Assembly (NCBI GenBank): GCA_016215605.1
Contig: JACRJB010000045.1
Span: 1 to 40,744, forward strand
Origin: Rhodopseudomonas palustris
Lineage (GTDB): Bacteria; Pseudomonadota; Alphaproteobacteria; Rhizobiales; Xanthobacteraceae
Length of the DNA: 40,744 bases
Reading direction: 5' to 3'
The first letter of the stretch is position 1; each line of letters starts with the position of its first letter. Position numbers and translations under genes: made by a program. Of this stretch, positions 2,357 through 31,618 are shown piece after piece. Under the pieces are notes generated by a model that saw only the letters and a program-made list of their open reading frames with translations, searched no databases and was not told where the DNA came from.

Positions 2357-4309
<1,953 letters not shown>

Positions 4310-4688
4310 TCTTTCCTCCACCCGAATACGCGGCCTTGCCGCACCCGCCGTCAGTGCCCGGACCGCAAATCGCTTCGAACCCGGCGGCCCATCTGTCAGC
4401 ACGTCCCGCTTCGCCGGACCGTATAACTCCGATCGGGCGAAATCGCGAAAACCGCTGATGGATGAGGTTCGCCGGCGAAGAGACGTGCGATCGTCTCACC
4501 ATCCGGCCGTTGTTGTTGGTGCGATTATGCGTCGGCGCCCCCGGCAACGACAAGCGGTGCGTCCATCCGACTTTTGGCGCTGGCGCGCGCGGCCACCGCC
4601 GCCCGGCGCGTGACGAGGCGGTCGCCCCGGAACCGGAAGGGCTCCGGCGCATTGATTGTCGTCAACCGCCCCGAGGCGCCGCAAGACG
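4310..4688. other. Divergent promoter region acsA / topoisomerase IB
   Basis: About 380 bases between two divergent genes, with no supported gene. A weak minus-strand promoter candidate is TTCGCG (4449-4444), a 17-base spacer and TTATAC (4426-4421), which would read into acsA with a leader of roughly 100 bases. Nothing convincing was seen for the plus strand. Confidence 0.35.
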
Positions 4689-5768
4689 ATGATGGATCAG
4701 CAGAATTTCGACGCTCCCGGCGCCGCCGCCGGGCCCGAGCCGATCGCCAGTGTCGAAATGCTGGCGAGCGATCTCGGACTGACCTTGGGCGAACCGGAGC
4801 AATTGACGATTCGCCGCATCCGCCGCGGCAAGCGCTTTCAATATCTGCGCGCCGATGGCTCACCGGTGAAGCAGCAGGCCACCCTGCGCCGGCTGAGCGC
4901 GCTGGCGATGCCGCCGGCCTATGAGGACGTGCGCTACGCCGCCGATCCGACCTCGCATCTGCAGGCGGTCGGCCGCGACGCCGCCGGCCGGCTGCAGTAC
5001 CGTTATCATTCGGATTGGGAGAAGGTGCGCGAGACCCGCAAGGCGCATCGCCTGGCGCAGCTGGTCGGCGCGTTGCCGAAGATCCGCCGCGCGGTGACCA
5101 AGCACCTGTCCAGCGACGAGCCGACCCGGGAATTCGCACTGGCGGCGGTGATCGAGCTGATCGCCCGCACCGCGATCCGCCCCGGCAGCGAGTCCTACGC
5201 GCGGCTGAACGGCACCCGCGGCGCCGCGACGCTGCTGAAGTCGAACGTCGCGCTCGAGGACGACTGCGTGATCCTGTCGTTTCGGGCCAAGGGTGGCAAG
5301 GCGGTGCGTAAGGAATGCGGCGCAGCGCGGCTGGTGCGGGCGATCGAGATCCTGCGCAAGCTGAAGGGCAAGCGGCTGTTCCAGTATCGCGGCGCGGACG
5401 GCGCGGTGCATCAGGTCAGCGCCACCCAGGTCAACGTCTTCCTGCGCGAGATCGCCGGAATCCGCATCTCGCTGAAGGATTTCCGGACCCTGATGGCCTC
5501 GGCCGTGGTGCTGGAATCGCTGGCGCGGATCGAGCCCGCGACCAGCGCCACCGGCCGGCGCAAGCAGGTGCTGAATGCGCTGCGCGAAGCCGCCGACGAA
5601 CTCGCCAACACCCCGGCGATCTGCCGCAAGAGCTACGTCCACGCCACCATCGTCACCGCCTTCGAAGACGGAATCCTGGAGCGCTTCGCCGCGACGCTGA
5701 AGGGCACGCGATCGCAGACCAAACGCGAGCAATTGCTGGCGCAGGTGGTGACGGCGGCGGCGGCGTAA
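4689..5768 (+). CDS. DNA topoisomerase IB (poxvirus type)
   Basis: A 359-residue enzyme that relaxes supercoils through a 3'-phosphotyrosyl intermediate. An N-terminal domain (about 40-115) precedes the catalytic domain: AIRPGSESY (R164), FRAKGGK (K201/K204), KDFRT (R266) and ICRKSY with the probable active-site Y316. The length fits bacterial homologues of the vaccinia enzyme (about 330-370). A TTG at 4656 would add 11 residues, but the ATG pair at 4689/4692 is the more natural start; the upstream GAGGCG is a weak ribosome site. It stands alone, with an IS element 62 bases downstream of the stop. Such genes are scattered in soil proteobacteria. The SxVHP-type motif is SYVHA here, a minor change. 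Confidence 0.9.
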   Translation: MMDQQNFDAPGAAAGPEPIASVEMLASDLGLTLGEPEQLTIRRIRRGKRFQYLRADGSPVKQQATLRRLSALAMPPAYEDVRYAADPTSHLQAVGRDAAGRLQYRYHSDWEKVRETRKAHRLAQLVGALPKIRRAVTKHLSSDEPTREFALAAVIELIARTAIRPGSESYARLNGTRGAATLLKSNVALEDDCVILSFRAKGGKAVRKECGAARLVRAIEILRKLKGKRLFQYRGADGAVHQVSATQVNVFLREIAGIRISLKDFRTLMASAVVLESLARIEPATSATGRRKQVLNALREAADELANTPAICRKSYVHATIVTAFEDGILERFAATLKGTRSQTKREQLLAQVVTAAAA

Positions 5769-5830: not shown

Positions 5831-7091
5831 TGTATGGACCGGAGAGATAGGTAACGACTGTTCGGAGACATGGGTAACACATCGACGGCATGACAGGCTC
5901 AGGAGGCCGGGATGCCGTGGCCCAAGGTGTTACTCATGGACCAGAGGATTGAGTTTATTCGGTTGTTCCAGCAGCCGGAGGTGAACCGGCAGGAGCTGTG
6001 CCGCCGGTTCGGGATCAGCCCGAAGACCGCCTACAAATGGCTGAAGCGAGCCACGTCGGGCGATTCGGATTGGGCGCAGGATCGGAGCCGACGTCCGCAT
6101 CGCTCGCCGAAGCGCAGTGGCAAGACGATCGAAGCGGCGGTCCTGCAGATCCGGGATGTTCATCCGGCCTGGGGAGCGCGCAAGATCCGCCGCCGCCTGA
6201 CGACAACGCCGGCCATTCCGGCAGCCTCGACTGTGCACGCCATCCTGCAGCGGAACGATCGAGTCCCGGCGCAACGGCATCCGTCGCATTACACGCGGTT
6301 CGAACACCCTGCACCGAACGACCTCTGGCAGATGGACTTCAAGGGACGCTTCGCGTTCGGCAACCGCGTCTTCTGCCATCCGCTCACGATGGTCGATGAC
6401 CATTCGCGCTATAATCTGTGCCTACAGGCTTGCGCCAACGAGCAAAGCGAGACCGTCCAGCAGCACATCGAACGGACCTTCGGCCGCTTCGGCCTGCCGA
6501 ACGCCTTTCTGGTCGACAACGGCGTGCCCTGGGGCACTTGCTCGCAGATGCGGTGGACGAAGCTGCGGGTCTGGCTGCTCAAGCTTGGTGTCGGCGTCGT
6601 CTATGCGCGCCCCTACCACCCGCAAACCAAGGGCAAGAACGAGCGCTTCCATCGCACACTCAAGGAAGAGGTGCTCTCGATGATGACGTTCACGAGCCTC
6701 CGGCAGATCCAGGTGGAATTCGATCGCTGGCGCGAGATCTACAACACGGAGCGGCCGCACCAGGCGATCGACTACGATGTGCCGGCGAGCCGTTATCGGC
6801 TCAGCGAACGGTCGATGCCGACCAAACTACCCGAAGTCGAATACGAAGAGGGCACGATCGTGCGCCGGGCCAGCAAACTCAAAGCCGACTTCCGCTTCGC
6901 CAATCGCCGCTTCAGCGCGCCCGAAGCCTTCCGCGGCGAGCTGCTGGCAATCAGACCAACCGCAACTGACGGCACCTTCGGCGTCTTCTTCGGCGCCCAC
7001 CAAATCGCATGCATCGACCTTCACAAACCTGCTAAATGAAACCGTGACCCATGTCTCCGAACACCTGTTACCCATGTGTCCGGGCCATACA
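5831..7091 (+). mobile_element. Complete IS481-family insertion sequence, 1261 bp
   Basis: The ends are inverted repeats beginning TGTATGG: about 47 bases at each side, of which 39 match by eye (5831-5877 against 7091-7045). Each end carries a repeated internal GGGTAAC / GGTAAC motif and a shared TTCGGAGACATGGGT block, likely transposase binding sites. It is flanked by the 5-bp direct duplication CTCGA (5826-5830 and 7092-7096). One intact transposase gene fills the element. Intact ends, target duplication and intact frame point to a recent, possibly active insertion. Confidence 0.93.
5912..7039 (+). CDS. IS481-family transposase
   Basis: A 375-residue DDE transposase. An N-terminal helix-turn-helix (about 22-46, ELCRRFGISPKTAYKWL) should bind the element ends. 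The rve-type catalytic core follows, with candidate acidic residues D142 (WQMDFKG), D202 (VDNGVPWG) and E244 (GKNERFHRTLK). The C-terminal part (about 300-375) is beta-rich, as in the family. The ATG at 5912 has CAGGAGG about 7 bases upstream, a good ribosome site. A second ATG lies 8 codons in. No frameshift is seen. Confidence 0.94.
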   Translation: MPWPKVLLMDQRIEFIRLFQQPEVNRQELCRRFGISPKTAYKWLKRATSGDSDWAQDRSRRPHRSPKRSGKTIEAAVLQIRDVHPAWGARKIRRRLTTTPAIPAASTVHAILQRNDRVPAQRHPSHYTRFEHPAPNDLWQMDFKGRFAFGNRVFCHPLTMVDDHSRYNLCLQACANEQSETVQQHIERTFGRFGLPNAFLVDNGVPWGTCSQMRWTKLRVWLLKLGVGVVYARPYHPQTKGKNERFHRTLKEEVLSMMTFTSLRQIQVEFDRWREIYNTERPHQAIDYDVPASRYRLSERSMPTKLPEVEYEEGTIVRRASKLKADFRFANRRFSAPEAFRGELLAIRPTATDGTFGVFFGAHQIACIDLHKPAK

Positions 7092-7207: not shown

Positions 7208-7903
7208 TTACTTCAGCGTCCACACACCCGTCTGCTTGATCTCGGAATCCTCCAGCTCGCGCGTCACCGGCACGCCATAGGTGGCGAGCTGCACAAGCTT
7301 GTCTTTCGGCAAATAATAACGTCCCGGATCGCCGATCAGCACGTGCGCGCCCTGCGTGGCGCGGCCCTGCAGGAACGCGAAGGCGAGCGCCGCGATGTCC
7401 TGCTGATAGAAGATGTCGCCGGCGAGCACGATTTGCGCCGGCAGCGGATGCGGGGCGCCGAGCAGATCGTCGCCGCTGATATCGAGCGCCACATCATTCG
7501 CCGCCGCGTTGAGGGCGATGGCCTGCCGCGCAAAGCCGTCGATATCGAACGCGGTGACTTTGCGCGCGCCTGCCTTCATGGCGGCGATCGCCACCAGGCC
7601 AGAGCCCGAGGCGAGATCGATCACCTCCTTGCCGGCGACGTCCTCCGGATGATCGAGCACATAGCGCGCCAGCGCCTGTCCGCCCGCCCAGGCGAACGCC
7701 CAGAACGGCGGCGGCAGCCCGGCCTCGCCGAGCTCCTCCTCGGTCTTGCTCCACAGCGGCAGCGCCTCGTCGGCGACATGCAGCGACACTTCCGGCACCA
7801 GCCGCACAGGGCGCAGACGCGTATTGGCGTGGATGAAGGCGACCGGGTCGGCGATGGCGCTGGTCATAAGACCGTTATGCGAAGTCTGGGTGGCACCGTC
7901 CAT
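7208..7903 (-). CDS. Class I SAM methyltransferase, ETF-beta lysine methyltransferase (METTL20)-like
   Basis: A 231-residue Rossmann-fold methyltransferase. The SAM-binding motif I is DLASGSGLVAIAA, the acidic strand-2 end is AFDID, and PPFWAFAWAGGQALARY before motif I is typical of the METTL20-like branch. Bacterial members of that branch (for example from Agrobacterium) methylate lysines of the electron transfer flavoprotein beta subunit; this target is inferred from family resemblance only. Older annotation would call it nicotinamide N-methyltransferase-like or a ribosomal L11 methyltransferase relative. The start at 7903 has GAGGA seven bases upstream; an internal ATG at 7867 is less well placed. 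It is transcribed divergently from the SIR2-TPR gene, 83 bases apart. Confidence 0.75.
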   Translation of the reverse strand: MDGATQTSHNGLMTSAIADPVAFIHANTRLRPVRLVPEVSLHVADEALPLWSKTEEELGEAGLPPPFWAFAWAGGQALARYVLDHPEDVAGKEVIDLASGSGLVAIAAMKAGARKVTAFDIDGFARQAIALNAAANDVALDISGDDLLGAPHPLPAQIVLAGDIFYQQDIAALAFAFLQGRATQGAHVLIGDPGRYYLPKDKLVQLATYGVPVTRELEDSEIKQTGVWTLK

Positions 7904-7928
7904 GGGAATGTCCTCAACCTTGCTCTAC

Positions 7929-7957
7929 TTGAAGTTGAATAATGAGACGGGTAATGA
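7929..7957 (+). promoter_or_regulatory. Candidate promoter of the SIR2-TPR gene
   Basis: TTGAAG (7929-7934), a 17-base spacer and TAATGA (7952-7957) lie about 30 bases before the start codon. The region is A+T-rich compared with its surroundings. Prediction by eye only. Confidence 0.35.
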
Positions 7958-7986
7958 ACCCAACGACGATCCTCAAATAATTAGAA

Positions 7987-9774
7987 ATGTCGATGGCAAA
8001 ATTCACACCCGAAGATGTCAAGCGAATCGCAGAGCGATTGAGACAGGCACGAGGGCGCGGTCATACTGCGCATTTCTTGATAGGAGCCGGTTGTTCGATT
8101 TCTGCGGGAATTCCGAGTGCTTCGGATCTCGTTAAGCGCATCCACGAGGACTACGCCGCTCATTGCTTGGGTCTATCGGATGGCAGCCGACAATTGTACG
8201 GCGCTTGCATGGCGCTTCTGACCATTAATGAACGCCGCGACCTAATTCGCCCCTACCTTGACAGCGCGAGAATTAATTGGGGGACTATAGCGTTGGCGCA
8301 GATGATTGCGGATGGCTTCATAGGCCGCGTATTGACCGTTAATTTCGACCTGGTCCTCGAAAGGGCGTGCGCGCTTCTTGGAATACAGCCGGCAGTCTAC
8401 GACTTTGGTGTGGCTCCCGCTAGCGACCCTGCGATGATTGTTACTCCATCTATTTTGCACTTACACGGCCAGAGTTACGGTCTGGTGTTACTGAATACCG
8501 AAGATGAAACGAGAAAACATCGAGCCAAATTACTCCCCGTATTGATCGATACACTCAGAAACGCTCCGCTTGTAGTTGTGGGCTATAGTGGCAGCGCTGA
8601 CGGCATTTTTCAGACATTGATCGACGAATTTCACGGCCGTGAAGGGCTATACTGGGTTGGTCACAATGAAGAGCCCGATGAGCATGTTCTTCCTCTGCTT
8701 GAGAAGGAACATTCGCAGTTCGTGGGTGGGGCGGACTTCGATCGTTTTATGATCGAGCTAGCTCAGTTGCTTTCGTGTTGGCCTCCAAAACTCTTTGCAG
8801 ATCCACTGGGCCATTTAATAGGAGAACTTGAGCCAGTCATTCCTTATCCTGTATCAGGTTCGGATAGTGAAATCGATCTGCTTAGCGATCTTAGACAGAG
8901 ACTCGAATCATGGCGGGGTGAACAGAATTCGATCGGCCGCCGGCAGATTGATCTTTCGAAGTTGTACATGGAGCGTGAATATCATCAGATCGCGAGCTAT
9001 TTTCATGGTAAGGGCCAATTCAAAAATCTGTCTGTAGAAGAGAAGCAAATCGGCTCTCTGTCCTTCGTCAATTTAGGAAATGAGCTTGGGCTGGCTGCGA
9101 AAAATACCAGTGGGCGCCAGCGTGCAGACTTGATCAAACAGGCTGCCCGACATTATCAACATGCGTTATCGATCAACCCTAACTCTGATGAAGCATATAG
9201 ATTCTGGGGTATCTTACTACGAGATGAGGCTGATCGAGTTACTGGCGATGATGCTATGCAACTCTTTGCTGAAGCCGGTGAGAAATTTCAATCCGCACTC
9301 GCAATCAATCCGAAGAATTTAAGAACGCTCTTCGATTGGGGCAGATTGCTGACTATGCAAGCGCGTCACTCCCAAGAGCAGGACGCTAGAAAATTTTTTG
9401 CTCAAGCCGAAGAAAAGTACGAAGCGGCCCTGACGCTGCAGCCAGAGAACGACGGCGCGCGATACAACCTCGGGAGCGTCCTATTGCGACGAGCAAACTT
9501 AGCAGTAGGGGAAGAGGCTGTTGATTTCCTTGCGAAAGCCGAGAAACATCTTCTCATTGCACTAAAGCAGCGCCCTCACCAGACATACAATCTAGCTTGC
9601 TTGCGCTCGCTGCAAGGAGACGAGGACGCTTGTCGTGAAGCTCTTTTGACTGCAGCTAAGAACGGTACGCTTCCGAGCGTTGAATATCTGATGTCTGACT
9701 TCGATCTAAAGTCAGTCCGTGAAACTACTTGGTTCAAGGAGCTTGTAGAACAGCAACTCAACAAGAAAATCTAG
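7987..9774 (+). CDS. SIR2-like NADase-type domain fused to a TPR array; candidate anti-phage defence protein
   Basis: A 595-residue protein not matching a named system that I recognise. The N-terminal ~265 residues form a SIR2-like domain: GAGCSISAGIP (33-43, NAD-binding loop), TVNFD (117-121, N119 and D121), LHLHG (157-161, candidate catalytic H160) and VVGYSGSADGIF (197-208). From about 355 to 560 come TPR-like helical pairs with a long period (about 40-50 residues), each ending near NPN/NPKN/QPEN, and a terminal D-x-DLxSVR...FxxLV capping motif typical of TPR ends. SIR2-family domains in ThsA, DSR1/2, SIR2-HerA and SPARSA deplete NAD+ on phage infection; a similar role here is inference. 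Base composition and use of ATA, AGA and TTA codons differ sharply from neighbours, suggesting transfer. The ribosome site is weak; ATG 7993 is an alternative start. It ends 4 bases from the convergent EVE gene. Confidence 0.88.
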   Translation: MSMAKFTPEDVKRIAERLRQARGRGHTAHFLIGAGCSISAGIPSASDLVKRIHEDYAAHCLGLSDGSRQLYGACMALLTINERRDLIRPYLDSARINWGTIALAQMIADGFIGRVLTVNFDLVLERACALLGIQPAVYDFGVAPASDPAMIVTPSILHLHGQSYGLVLLNTEDETRKHRAKLLPVLIDTLRNAPLVVVGYSGSADGIFQTLIDEFHGREGLYWVGHNEEPDEHVLPLLEKEHSQFVGGADFDRFMIELAQLLSCWPPKLFADPLGHLIGELEPVIPYPVSGSDSEIDLLSDLRQRLESWRGEQNSIGRRQIDLSKLYMEREYHQIASYFHGKGQFKNLSVEEKQIGSLSFVNLGNELGLAAKNTSGRQRADLIKQAARHYQHALSINPNSDEAYRFWGILLRDEADRVTGDDAMQLFAEAGEKFQSALAINPKNLRTLFDWGRLLTMQARHSQEQDARKFFAQAEEKYEAALTLQPENDGARYNLGSVLLRRANLAVGEEAVDFLAKAEKHLLIALKQRPHQTYNLACLRSLQGDEDACREALLTAAKNGTLPSVEYLMSDFDLKSVRETTWFKELVEQQLNKKI

Positions 9775-9778
9775 CAAC

Positions 9779-10192
9779 CTACAGCGCACCCATCTTGCAG
9801 ACCAGCTTCCATTCCTCGGCCGTCACCGGCTGCACCGACAGGCGCGAGTATTTCAGCAGCGCCATCTCCGACAGCTTCGGTTCGGCCTTCACCGCGACCA
9901 GCGTCACCGGCGTCTTCAGCTTCTTGTCGGCCTTGATGTCGACGCAGACGAACTTGCCGGACGCGTCCGTCGGGTCCGGATAGGCTTCGCGGATGATCTC
10001 GGCGATGCCGACGATCTCCTTGCCTTCGTTCGAGTGGTAGTAGAAGGCGCGGTCGCCTTTCTTCATCGCTATCATGTGCAGCTTGGCGGAGTGGTTGCGC
10101 ACGCCGGTCCAGGCCTCGCCCTTGGCGCCCTTGGCCACCTGCTGGTCCCACGACCACACCGAAGGCTCGGATTTCACCAGCCAATACGCCAT
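9779..10192 (-). CDS. EVE domain protein (thymocyte nuclear protein 1-like)
   Basis: A 137-residue single EVE domain: it opens with MAYWLVKSEPSVWSWDQ and has WTGVRNHSAKLHM and FYYHSNEGKEIVGI, all typical of the family. EVE domains share the PUA/YTH fold and are thought to bind modified bases in DNA or RNA; the cellular role of this bacterial form is not settled. The start ATG at 10192 lies 5 bases after the gpsA stop, and its GGAGGA ribosome site overlaps the last gpsA codons, so the two genes are translationally coupled. It probably belongs to the tsaD-gpsA-EVE group rather than to the adjacent foreign gene. Confidence 0.9.
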   Translation of the reverse strand: MAYWLVKSEPSVWSWDQQVAKGAKGEAWTGVRNHSAKLHMIAMKKGDRAFYYHSNEGKEIVGIAEIIREAYPDPTDASGKFVCVDIKADKKLKTPVTLVAVKAEPKLSEMALLKYSRLSVQPVTAEEWKLVCKMGAL

Positions 10193-10197
10193 CGTCT

Positions 10198-11187
10198 CTA
10201 TTCCTCCGCCTTGAGCGGCCGCGTCAGCAGGCCTTCGATCGCCGCATCGACGCCGAGCTTGCCGGCCAGGATCGCCGCGACCGCGGTCGAGATCGGCATC
10301 TCGACGCCTTTCGCCTGCGCCATCTCCAGCAGCACCGGCGCGGTGTAATAGCCTTCGGCGAGCTTGCCGTGGGCCGCCTCTTCGATCCTCTCGCCGCGGC
10401 CGAGCGCCATGCCGAACGAGAAGTTGCGCGATTGCGGCGTCGAGCAGCACATCGTCAGATCGCCGAGGCCGGACAGGCCGTGCATGGTCTCGATCCGCGC
10501 CCCATAGGCCTTGCCGAACCGCACGAGTTCGACGAAGCCGCGCGTCGTCATTGCCGCGAGCGCCGATGCGCCGAGCTTGCGGCCCTCGACGATGCCGGCG
10601 GCGATCGCCATCACGTTCTTGGTGGCGCCGCCGAGTTCGACGCCGCGCACGTCGGTCGAGTGATAGGGGCGGAAGCTGCCGGAATTCATCGCCTGCGCCA
10701 GCGCCTGGGCGACCGCGGCATCGCTGGCCGCGATCGTCACCGCCGTCGGCAATCCGCGCGCCACGTCGGCGGCGAAGCTCGGACCGGACAGGATCGCCGG
10801 CACCGCGTTCGGCGCGCATTCGGCGATGATCTCGGTCATGAAGCGGTGGGTGCCGTGCTCGATGCCCTTGGCACAGGCGATCAGCGGCGTGCGCGCGGCG
10901 ATCAGCGGCTGCAGCGAGGTCACCACCGATCGCAGCACCTGCGCCGGCACCACCAGCAGCAGCGCCTGCGCGCGCGCAGCCTCCGCCAGATCGCGCGTCA
11001 CCTTGATCGAATCGTCGAGCCTGACGCCGGGCAGAAACCGGCTCTCGCGCGCGTCGATCAGATGCTGCGCGTTGCCGGCATCGTGCTCCCACAGCACGAC
11101 GCTGCGGCCGGCGCGCGCCGCCGTCTGCGCCAGCGCCGTTCCCCACGCGCCGCCGCCGAGCACGGCGACCGAATCAAATGAAGCCAT
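10198..11187 (-). CDS. gpsA: Glycerol-3-phosphate dehydrogenase [NAD(P)+]
   Basis: A 329-residue cytoplasmic enzyme that reduces dihydroxyacetone phosphate to sn-glycerol-3-phosphate for phospholipid synthesis. The nucleotide-binding GGGAWGTA is at 11-18; [31 protein letters not shown] and the catalytic-lysine segment [16 protein letters not shown] follow in the usual order. The length is standard. It lies downstream of tsaD in the same direction, with a palindromic repeat in between, and overlaps its ribosome signals with the EVE gene that follows. Confidence 0.96.
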
Positions 11188-29155: not shown

Positions 29156-30088
29156 TCAGATCCAGGCGAAGTTCGCCGCCGGGCGGGCCGTGCGGTTGAG
29201 CAGCGAACGCATCAGGCAGCGTTCGATCTGCACCGAGGAGACGGTGGCGGCATCGGCGCCGACCAACGCGCAGGCATCGGCCCGCTCGGCGAAGACGCGG
29301 CCGCTGGCGACGATGGCGAGTGCCGGATTGCGCGAGACTTTGCGAATCTTGCGAATGGTCTCGGCGACCCGCGGCAGCCAGTGCTCGCGGCGCAGCGCCG
29401 GGCTGAGCGACAGGTTGACCGCGTCGAACCAGCCATTGGCGACGAGATCGCACAGCGCCTTGTCGGTATCGGGGAATTCGCTGACCGTATTCCAGCCGGC
29501 CTGGCGCAGCAGTTCGGAATGCAGTGCGGCGCAGAACGAATGCGGCTCGCCGGGCTGCGAGATCACCAGCACGGTGCGCGGCTGCGAGCGCGTCAGCGGC
29601 GCCGACAGCAGATCGAAGCTGATGCGGCGCATCGCGGTCTGCAGATGGCAGAGGCCGATCGCAACCTCGAATTCGCTGCAGGAGTCCTCGCTCCACAGAT
29701 CGCCGAGCTTGCGCGCGGTCGGTTCGAACAGGCCCGTGAACAGCGCGGCCGGCGACGCCGCGCGCGCCAGCGAGCGATCGATCAGATCGAACGCGTCGGC
29801 CAGATTGGGGGCGATCAGCAGGCGGGCCAGCTCGTCGGCCCGGGCTTCCGCCGGATCCTGTGCGGCGCGCACCCGCGTCGCGGCGGCGACGTGCTTGACG
29901 AGGAGATGCGGGATGACCGTCGAGACAATGCTTTCTGGATGCACGGCACGCACTCGATCTGGTTGCCCTCGGACCACGAGAGATTTTTGAATGTCTGGAC
30001 CCAGCGAAACTGCCGAGGGGGAGAGCAGGTCGGGGTTTCCTCGTGCGGTCACGGGCTCGTAACAAAACCGGCAGCGCCGTTGCCGCAA
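29156..30088 (-). CDS. B12-binding-domain regulator, AerR/PpaA type
   Basis: About 310 residues in the longest reading. The helical N-terminal part of the B12-binding fold holds LGDLWSEDSCSEFEVAIGLCHLQ; the Rossmann-like part holds VISQPGEPHSFCAALHSELLRQAGW, where GEPHSF takes the place of the usual cobalamin-loop DxHxxG. This combination is typical of AerR/PpaA, light- and redox-responsive partners of PpsR/CrtJ that modulate photosynthesis gene expression. No DNA-binding domain is seen. The start is uncertain: the longest frame begins with TTG at 30088, while conservation begins only at VHPESIVSTVIPHLL, and GTG codons lie between (for example 30052). It may well begin later. Confidence 0.72.
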   Translation of the reverse strand: MRQRRCRFCYEPVTARGNPDLLSPSAVSLGPDIQKSLVVRGQPDRVRAVHPESIVSTVIPHLLVKHVAAATRVRAAQDPAEARADELARLLIAPNLADAFDLIDRSLARAASPAALFTGLFEPTARKLGDLWSEDSCSEFEVAIGLCHLQTAMRRISFDLLSAPLTRSQPRTVLVISQPGEPHSFCAALHSELLRQAGWNTVSEFPDTDKALCDLVANGWFDAVNLSLSPALRREHWLPRVAETIRKIRKVSRNPALAIVASGRVFAERADACALVGADAATVSSVQIERCLMRSLLNRTARPAANFAWI

Positions 30089-30654
30089 AGGCAGGGAGCC
30101 CCGGAATCGACAGCTCGTCTTTGCTCTGGATCAAAAGCGGCCGGCCGCCGAACGTCGGAGCGGAAGCAGGCGGGCCGCCGCGCGCATCACAGCGGCATAG
30201 CGTCGCTATGGTATCAGGGTAACAATTGACCGATTGGGATTTGAGTACCGTGCTGCACAGCGATGTGAGTCGGCGTCGCGCGCGCGGAATCCGTCCGTCT
30301 CTCGGCGGCTGGTATTCTGGCGAATCCAGATTCGTGGTATTTGCTTTCCATGCGCGAGCTGGCGATTCTCGCCGGCTCGGATCGAGCCTGTGCCGACACA
30401 CGCGCGCAGGAAATTAGTTTTCCCGCGTCGCAAATGTACCATCGCAGGTATCGATCGGCAGTTAGTTAGCAAAGGAGTGAAGCACGCTTGCGTCTTTGTC
30501 CTGAATCAATCGATCCAGTTAGCTGCCCCGTATATTTACAGTTGTGCGAATCAGCGCAAAACTGAATCGACGAGTCTATCTACGCTGAGCAACTACCAAG
30601 TTTAAACAAAGGGTTAGACTGGTTTTTGACTCACAGGTGATTCGCGATTCTAAA

Positions 30655-30684
30655 GAACGAGTGCCTGGTTACCAGCGCTCGTTC
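30655..30684 (+). promoter_or_regulatory. Stem-loop upstream of the HAMP gene
   Basis: GAACGAG (30655-30661) pairs with CTCGTTC (30678-30684), and CTGG/CCAG closes an inner three-base TTA loop. The symmetric form suggests an RNA hairpin or a binding site in the leader. Confidence 0.4.
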
Positions 30685-30790
30685 ACCGTTCCAGCGTGAG
30701 GGCGTTTTGGCGGTATCGGAAAAGCCGATTTCGTCGAATCTAGAGGTTTCGTTAACCTTAATAAGTAAAGCGTTGATCACGCTGTTCACC

Positions 30791-30812
30791 TTAGGGGGCA
30801 AGCCGCCCCTAA
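30791..30812 (+). promoter_or_regulatory. Hairpin 23 bases ahead of the HAMP start codon
   Basis: TTAGGGG (30791-30797) pairs with CCCCTAA (30806-30812) around an 8-base loop. The position just upstream of the GGAG ribosome site could let it affect translation. Confidence 0.35.
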
Positions 30813-30835
30813 TTGAAGAAAGCTGGAGAAACAAG

Positions 30836-31618
30836 ATGCAGTTCGACCTTTCAAATCGGAGCCTCGCGCAGAAGATCTCGATTCTGGTGTTGGGAATTAC
30901 CTTCGTCGTCGCGCTCGCGATCGGCAGCGTCAGCCAGATGGTGCTGCACAAAGTGAGCACCGAGCAGGCCAAGCAGCACGCCAGCGTCGCCTCGCTGGAC
31001 CGCCTGATCGGACACGGAGGCGCAACGCTGTCGCCAGTCCGGGCGGCTGACGGAAGCATCGTCGGCATGCTGGTGATGCAACAGGAATCCGGGCCGGTGG
31101 TGATGCCGGCGTCGTATGAAGGCCAGGGCCTCGTGGTCCAGGCGGCCGAGACCGTCACGGCGCCGACCGCGAATTACGCCCTCAGCGCTGCCAACACCAT
31201 GCTGCTGCTCGCCGGGATCGTGGTGTTCGCGGTGGTCGGCCTGATCGGAACCCGGATCTCGCGCGGCCTGCTCGCTCCGCTCGGTGAACTCGAGAAGGAC
31301 GTCGAGAAGCTCGCCAGCGGCGAAACCAACATCCGCATCCACGCCCTCAGCCGTTCCGACGAAATCGGCCGGATCGCTCGTTCGATCGCCAAGATCCAGG
31401 AATCGCTGATCGAGCTCGCCAAGCTCAAGACCCAGCGGGTGGTCGGCGGCGCCAATTCGGTGCTGGAGAATCTGAAGGAGATGTGGGGCGACCTGAAGTC
31501 CGCCGCACGCAACGCCCGCGAGATGCTGTTCACCGACGGCAAGACCATCAGCGAGACGCTGTCGCGATCGTGGAGCGAATGGGTGCATAACGGCCTCGGC
31601 GTCCCGAAACGCGCCTGA
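30836..31618 (+). CDS. HAMP-domain membrane protein without output domain
   Basis: A 260-residue protein. A transmembrane helix (about 16-36) is followed by a periplasmic stretch to ~115 holding DGSIVGMLVMQQESGPVV, a second helix (about 122-142), and a HAMP domain (about 145-195: RISRGLLAPLGELEKDVEKLASGE...DEIGRIARSIAKIQ). The last ~65 residues are helical but are not a methyl-accepting, kinase or cyclase domain. It resembles a chemoreceptor input half that ends after HAMP. It may be a truncated receptor or a stand-alone regulator. ATG 30836 has GGAG eight bases upstream; the longer open frame from 30707 is not supported. A good terminator follows. Confidence 0.82.
   Translation: MQFDLSNRSLAQKISILVLGITFVVALAIGSVSQMVLHKVSTEQAKQHASVASLDRLIGHGGATLSPVRAADGSIVGMLVMQQESGPVVMPASYEGQGLVVQAAETVTAPTANYALSAANTMLLLAGIVVFAVVGLIGTRISRGLLAPLGELEKDVEKLASGETNIRIHALSRSDEIGRIARSIAKIQESLIELAKLKTQRVVGGANSVLENLKEMWGDLKSAARNAREMLFTDGKTISETLSRSWSEWVHNGLGVPKRA

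Follow-up and report, generated by a model that had tools for sequence, protein, structure and literature searches.

The 40,744-nucleotide contig JACRJB010000045.1 of Rhodopseudomonas palustris (referred to here as the window) carries a gene that joins an N-terminal SIR2 domain to a C-terminal array of tetratricopeptide repeats (TPR), and the question raised by this locus is whether a single protein of this kind could act as a complete defence system. A reading made from the letters alone (the sequence-only reading) had proposed that it could, with the TPR part sensing a phage protein and releasing NAD+-consuming activity. Our analysis favours, with a probability of roughly 0.6, a one-protein, NTPase-free, NAD+-depleting intracellular receptor that is triggered by an invader protein. 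In the proposed mechanism, the C-terminal TPR superhelix and the TPR end-of-group (END) domain that follows it would hold SIR2 inactive until a protein from a phage or another mobile element docks on the concave TPR face. Ligand binding, probably accompanied by oligomerisation (as happens in DSR2, ThsA and Avs5), would activate SIR2; the site formed by N119 and H160 would then hydrolyse NAD+, and the infected cell would stall or die, with protection against phage as the presumed outcome. Specificity would shift through gain, loss and homogenisation of TPR units together with substitutions at concave positions.

The open reading frame (ORF) at 7987-9774 on the forward strand starts with ATG and runs for 595 codons without an internal stop. 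All SIR2 motifs quoted when the core was first called intact were found (GAG.S, G33-S37; NFD, N119-D121; LHG, H160-G161; GYSG, G199-G202), and the Pfam family SIR2_2 (PF13289) matched at 39 bits against a cut-off of 24.5. A 46-sequence family alignment has 13 invariant columns, which include N119, F120, D121, G161, G199, Y200 and G202. The long-period C-terminal TPR array of the sequence-only reading was likewise recovered: TPR_11, TPR_17 and TPR_19 each exceeded the Pfam cut-off, and a repeat model placed four units with a period of 44 at residues about 362-527. NCBIfam added the END domain at residues 534-588, which that reading does not mention. An AlphaFold2 model built with 28 family sequences (mean predicted local distance difference test score 91.6; predicted template modelling score 0.76) showed an alpha/beta domain followed by paired helices, and when model and structures were compared the closest fold to the SIR2 domain was the SPARSA SIR2, with canonical sirtuins in a band just below. 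A canonical deacetylase was rejected by sequence, as the profile search matched SIR2_2 and not the canonical sirtuin family PF02146, and two CxxC motifs of the zinc type within the first 300 residues were found in none of 40 family members; the zinc module is, in the excerpts of the sirtuin literature available, not universal among sirtuins. A promoter scan returned one site, against a mean of 1.8 in shuffled sequences.

The SIR2-TPR gene of the window is a recent horizontal acquisition. Its guanine-plus-cytosine (GC) content is 0.499 and its third-position GC (GC3) is 0.495, compared with a GC3 of 0.84-0.91 in the neighbouring methyltransferase-like, EVE and gpsA genes. Among the 16 genomes examined from the genus a single one carries the gene, and the only other match in the genus (G011) was a SIR2 stretch 31% identical. 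Using gpsA as an anchor, the locus was placed in 15 of the 16 genomes, the window's own included, and in each of the remaining 14 the methyltransferase gene adjoins the EVE gene across a gap of 98-196 bp, with no SIR2 gene between them; vertical conservation at this locus, which would have counted against the sequence-only reading, is thus rejected. In the window, 4 bp separate the stop codon of the SIR2-TPR gene from that of the EVE gene. No direct or inverted repeats of at least 7 bp were found at the insertion borders. The nearby IS481 transposase gene was considered as a necessary carrier and rejected, since L037, a congener that lacks the SIR2 gene, has a 93.6% identical copy of it; IS481 therefore need not have brought the gene in. 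By eye, the methyltransferase/EVE gaps of L028-L041 (98-196 bp) seem to hold palindromic sequences resembling repetitive extragenic palindromes that differ across species, and the gap is perhaps a small insertion hotspot.

A search across 391 genomes of the same taxonomic family at a threshold of E <= 1e-15 found matches in 7 of them: the window's own, five to the TPR part only and one, in G385, to the SIR2 part. Of the five TPR-only genomes, all but G112 and G143 had their ORFs read, and these three hold TPR arrays without SIR2. The proteins at L003/L067, L004 and L005/L068, from genomes of this taxonomic family, have 44-45-residue units and an end domain like that of the window protein but no SIR2, so the sensor module also occurs without the effector. 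A class-level search (385 genomes) gave full-length relatives in G441 and G677, and an order-level search (397 genomes) gave a full-length relative in G1121, a broken one in G886 and, in G866, one that aligned end to end with fewer than four recognisable units. These searches scored only a few candidates in each genome (3 in the larger ones), which makes their negatives soft. A scan of genome contigs with the window protein alone retrieved 20 stretches and no relatives. A profile scan of a GTDB contig collection combined with two peptide patterns retrieved 391 stretches with 127 relatives, of which 80 were kept, and a scan of viral contigs gave six relatives.

An array census covered 61 proteins of at least 400 residues scoring above 120 bits, window included. 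At least four array units were found in 44 of them, or in 40 distinct SIR2-TPR proteins once second entries of the same gene were removed; these have 4-16 units (median 6), and the counts are probably minima wherever short reads may have merged repeats. By their labels, the sources are Pseudomonadota, Bacteroidota, Acidobacteriota, Armatimonadota, Myxococcota, Zixibacteriota and Sumerlaeota, with one archaeal source, a Methanosarcinaceae bin. In the SIR2 tree, Pseudomonadota need 8 label changes compared with 13.9 for shuffled labels, and a single branch separates the six Bacteroidota rows from all others; the family is clustered by phylum with some mixing, with the proviso that bins may hold foreign contigs. 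Of the 40 related loci whose flanks exceed 3 kb, 35 have a gene poorer in GC than its surroundings; the mean difference is -0.053. The predicted catalytic N119 is kept in 40/40 members and H160 in 35/40. In a betaproteobacterial group with 47-residue units (L088, L093, L103, L107) Asn replaces the catalytic His, and L111 has Arg at the aligned position. Interrupted or truncated copies were seen at L065 (8476-10311), L094, L096, L108 and L125, consistent with gene turnover or assembly errors.

Much of the family has homogenised arrays. Mean within-protein unit identity was at least 0.50 (up to 0.85) in 17 of 22 arrays, compared with 0.13-0.51 between proteins, although for the 41-residue arrays the low between-protein value (0.13) is partly a register effect. 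The five arrays below 0.50 are those of the window (0.30), L101 (0.28), L120 (0.24, mis-registered in that table) and L063, which is also entered as L092 (0.13, with uneven spacing). Within a protein the units often share one length, which differs among groups (41, 44, 45 or 47 residues). Copy number differs at one and the same locus: Azospirillum cavernae has four units and A. griseum eight, in flanking DNA that is about 84-85% identical. In this pair the SIR2 parts are 93.8% identical with a nonsynonymous divergence (dN) of 0.037, compared with 0.059-0.072 in three flanking genes, and the gene is therefore under selection there; the last 70 residues are 57% identical, with a dN of 0.29. A similar two-speed pattern was seen in the equal-length Flavobacteriaceae proteins L116 and L117 (33-40 of 40 residues identical per block over residues 1-320, and 18/40 and 12/24 in the end blocks) and between G1121 and G886, where SIR2 is 98% and END 62% identical and the synonymous divergence (dS) of END, 2.0 against 0.19, suggests that END was replaced. 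Where one copy of a pair is truncated or frameshifted (L094, L096, L108, L125), the pair was not counted as evidence of divergence.

Variation within the arrays falls on the predicted ligand face. Magliery and Regan listed positions 2, 5, 9, 12, 13, 33 and 34 as the variable concave-face positions of TPR units (PMC1261162; this and the other papers cited by PMC number were available in excerpt). We compared entropy at these positions with entropy elsewhere in 11 arrays with at least four units of exactly 44 residues and at least 45% internal identity, one entry per gene, a set to which the window array does not belong. Mean normalised entropy was 2.51 at the concave set and 0.71 elsewhere (permutation p 5e-5), the excess had p < 0.01 in each of the 11 arrays, and 0 of 43 circular shifts of the register matched the observed score. 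Two members of the set, positions 33 and 2, added little (0.80 and 1.18). Outside it, two positions (units 7 and 13) were variable too (2.27 and 2.11). Among seven hand-picked arrays of other periods, five showed the concave excess at once (p 0.0002-0.029); L071 and L120 had p 0.87 and 0.06 at first, and 0.0004 and 0.0006 after re-registration on the WG motif, which was applied to these two only and decided after the first result. The enrichment was thus found in 18 of 18 arrays tested, two of them after the register fix. Of the 23 positions that vary strongly between proteins, the 6 concave ones have a ratio of within- to between-protein variation of 0.82 and the 17 others a ratio of 0.40 (p 6e-4). 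In the 11 arrays, dN was 0.29-1.01 at the concave set and 0.034-0.30 elsewhere, and concave-set dN/dS exceeded 1 in four arrays and was 0.55-0.88 in six (undefined in L080, which has no synonymous change), compared with 0.13-0.78 elsewhere. These values suggest, but do not prove, positive selection at concave positions. Homogenisation, two-speed divergence and the concentration of unit differences on the concave face give the TPR part of the family the evolutionary signature of a recognition surface.

No named system was recognised in the sequence-only reading, and none was matched end to end in the Pfam, PADLOC and NCBIfam libraries scanned. Both PADLOC and the fold comparison rank SPARSA first for the SIR2 domain and, in the excerpts available, it has the same Asn-His dyad; however, PADLOC matches to Aga_SIR2/pAgo stop at the SIR2 part, the C-terminus of the window protein consists of TPR and END with no APAZ, and no short prokaryotic Argonaute (pAgo) occurs among the window neighbours identified. 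Avs5 combines an N-terminal SIR2 with a STAND NTPase and C-terminal TPR, Sel1 or PPR-type repeats (PMC12931631). The order of SIR2 and repeats is as in the window protein, in which no NTPase family was matched (Pfam, E up to 1). Neither a SLOG match in the protein nor a TIR gene among the neighbours scanned was found, as Thoeris (ThsA) would have, nor a HerA ATPase among those neighbours, as in SIR2-HerA. Membership in SPARSA, Avs5, Thoeris and SIR2-HerA was therefore rejected, their partner genes or domains being unmatched in Pfam, PADLOC and the neighbours scanned. DSR2 is, like the window protein, a single protein with an N-terminal SIR2 NADase, and is activated by a phage protein (PMC10981675). 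DSR2 has a helical C-terminal domain; its chains in the fold comparison have about 930-1000 residues compared with 595, and the folds overlay well over SIR2 only, longer overlays having a root-mean-square deviation above 20 Å. The DSR2 sensor is not known to be a homogenised TPR array. The Halfgib1 protein, annotated as TPR and with a SIR2-type N-terminus, is 25.5% identical over residues 1-246 of the query only; its sirtuin is mentioned in PMC9503650. The PADLOC candidate PDC-S65 also has a SIR2-type N-terminus, but the window protein covers positions 129-288 of 592 of the profile only, and 6 of 10 relatives match it (E up to 1e-12) in the SIR2 part only.

The closest likeness in array behaviour is to fungal NLRs. 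Podospora TPR, ANK and WD40 NLRs have homogenised repeats, repeat-number polymorphism and variation at concave or interaction sites (PMC4986451, PMC12222747), and the same three traits occur in much of the SIR2-TPR family as in these fungal high-internal-conservation NLRs (het-d/het-e and the Podospora TPR type). The fungal proteins, in contrast, carry NACHT or NB-ARC plus other effectors, whereas no NOD domain was matched here (Pfam, E up to 1) and the hosts are prokaryotes; with no NACHT or NB-ARC match the SIR2-TPR protein is not filed as an NLR. Related combinations appear in the literature: the legend of one tree gives SIR2_2 proteins a TPR label (PMC12700824), P4 hotspots hold STAND proteins that combine repeats with a SIR2 effector (PMC9122126), and sirtuins occur with TPR-GreA/B-PIN systems (PMC9503650). 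We found no paper naming a lone SIR2-TPR system or covering the family, with most subscription literature outside the search and a prior description possible. That the family is an NTPase-free bacterial immune-receptor family of lone genes outside islands, with a constant SIR2 NADase and a TPR array diversifying by concerted evolution at its ligand face, and so a bacterial counterpart of the fungal NLRs above, is a tentative proposal for which the odds fall a little short of even.

Several observations qualify the receptor reading. The window array itself is not homogenised, with unit identity of 0.30 within and 0.33 between proteins, and because it is short and diverged the immune-receptor-like regime rests on relatives. 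The pair Flavobacterium columnare and F. davisii (L122/L125) shows no C-terminal divergence, the DNA being 95% identical throughout and L125 truncated. The family is not island-borne in a sample of 44 related loci with 279 neighbouring ORFs, collected with a simple ORF picker. PADLOC matched few of these neighbours at E <= 1e-10 (14 and 10 rows in the two neighbour sets, one or two members each, counts that have no random-locus baseline), mad3 being among the rows in both. Two pVip matches probably reflect MoaA-like radical SAM proteins, since Mob_synth_C has two members too. The window neighbours identified (methyltransferase-like, EVE, gpsA, TsaD, IS481 and topoisomerase IB) are housekeeping genes and one IS481, and the defence-island link of the sequence-only reading found no support at either level.

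The neighbours' Pfam families are instead mostly metabolic (judged on the best 25 of 151 and the best 25 of 125), which speaks for a different role, in which the TPR array would bind a host partner and SIR2 would make or transfer a signal based on ADP-ribose, serving stress physiology or kin recognition. The loss of the His in 5/40 members fits this role, as does a proposal that sirtuins act as ADP-ribosyltransferases in conflict systems (PMC9503650). Within four genes of family loci (set L099-L125, L065, L066, L098, L102) there are two KptA/Tpt1 RNA 2'-phosphotransferase genes and one ADP-ribosylglycohydrolase gene; this is ADP-ribose chemistry nearby and counts on the same side. A sparse distribution, a prophage copy and a fast-changing binding face are, however, ill-suited to a constant partner, and we consider this role unlikely.

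The prophage copy also bears on another possibility, that the gene is mobile-element cargo, a prophage moron against superinfecting phages that was left behind in chromosomes once the element had decayed. The Acetobacter viral contig L150 carries the gene amid baseplate, tail-fibre and virion structural genes, in the tail module and on the opposite strand from the baseplate genes; it is found likewise in L151 and, within a genome, in L077. This is the one family gene found in prophage or viral contigs (L150/L151), and kin SIR2 proteins without recognisable 44-residue units occur in four further viral contigs (L152-L155), which we take by eye to be Bacillus-type prophages. The SIR2-TPR gene of L064 is close to a gene matching tail-lysozyme and endolysin families, and more distant SIR2 proteins lie near integrase genes in Haloferax virus Halfgib1 and two Vibrio viruses. 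Yet no phage structural family was among the neighbour Pfam families listed for the 44 loci (the same best-25 sets), and no phage gene was among the window neighbours identified. A moron origin, which is compatible with the invader-triggered receptor and differs mainly in the beneficiary, is on balance less probable still than the host-partner role. A selfish or neutral repeat gene, in which slippage and unequal crossing over expand the array and concave positions are merely the least constrained, would account for the broken copies and the concave-set dN/dS below 1 in 6 of 11 arrays, but is very improbable given the selection on SIR2 in Azospirillum and the homogenisation within arrays of off-concave positions that vary between proteins (0.40 vs 0.82).

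If the invader-triggered receptor is the correct reading, bacteria would reach new receptor specificities through the copying and alteration of repeat units, as happens in fungal NLRs, though in a single two-part protein, and array sequence would report surfaces under past selection. The natural Azospirillum pair with four and eight units would then allow a direct test of ligand specificity. As lone genes outside defence islands, such systems could easily be missed by island-based searches. The interest stems from the family's array evolution and is limited by the short, diverged array of the window and by its lack of island context. Coordinates of the gene and its surroundings are collected in Table 1.

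Table 1. Features of the SIR2-TPR locus in the window (positions in the 40,744-nucleotide stretch).
Feature	Position	Strand	Basis or remark
SIR2-TPR gene, intact, 595 residues	7987..9774	+	ORF reading; Pfam, NCBIfam
SIR2 domain, residues about 8-265	8008..8781	+	
N119 codon, predicted catalytic Asn	8341..8343	+	present in 40/40 family members
H160 codon, predicted catalytic His	8464..8466	+	present in 35/40 family members
Helix-containing linker, residues about 266-361	8782..9069	+	AlphaFold2 secondary structure
TPR array, four 44-residue units, residues about 362-533	9070..9585	+	
TPR end-of-group (END) domain, residues 534-588	9586..9750	+	NF047558, 33.5 bits vs cut-off 32
Inserted stretch, GC about 0.495, replacing relatives' 98-196 bp intergenic gap	7904..9778	.	
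Left flank, conserved methyltransferase-like gene, outside system	7208..7903	-	adjoins EVE gene in 14/14 congeners
Right flank, EVE-domain gene, outside system	9779..10201	-	Pfam
IS481-family transposase gene	5912..7039		93.6% identical copy, same gene order, in congener L037

Some further features were recorded around the family loci. At L064, the 16-unit SIR2-TPR gene has an AT-rich gene for a leucine-rich-repeat protein of 572 residues (3230-4948) a few genes away. Two different plasmids share the order Fic, SIR2 (with a C-terminus that is not TPR-like) and a hypothetical gene (L043, 6511-11083; L046, 6534-11083). Other neighbours, as we take them by eye, are rho beside L063, an aldolase beside L066 and a catalase in L150. 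In the window, a second dip in GC (0.562) lies at 30001-31000, where a single ORF among those tried had a match, to HAMP.
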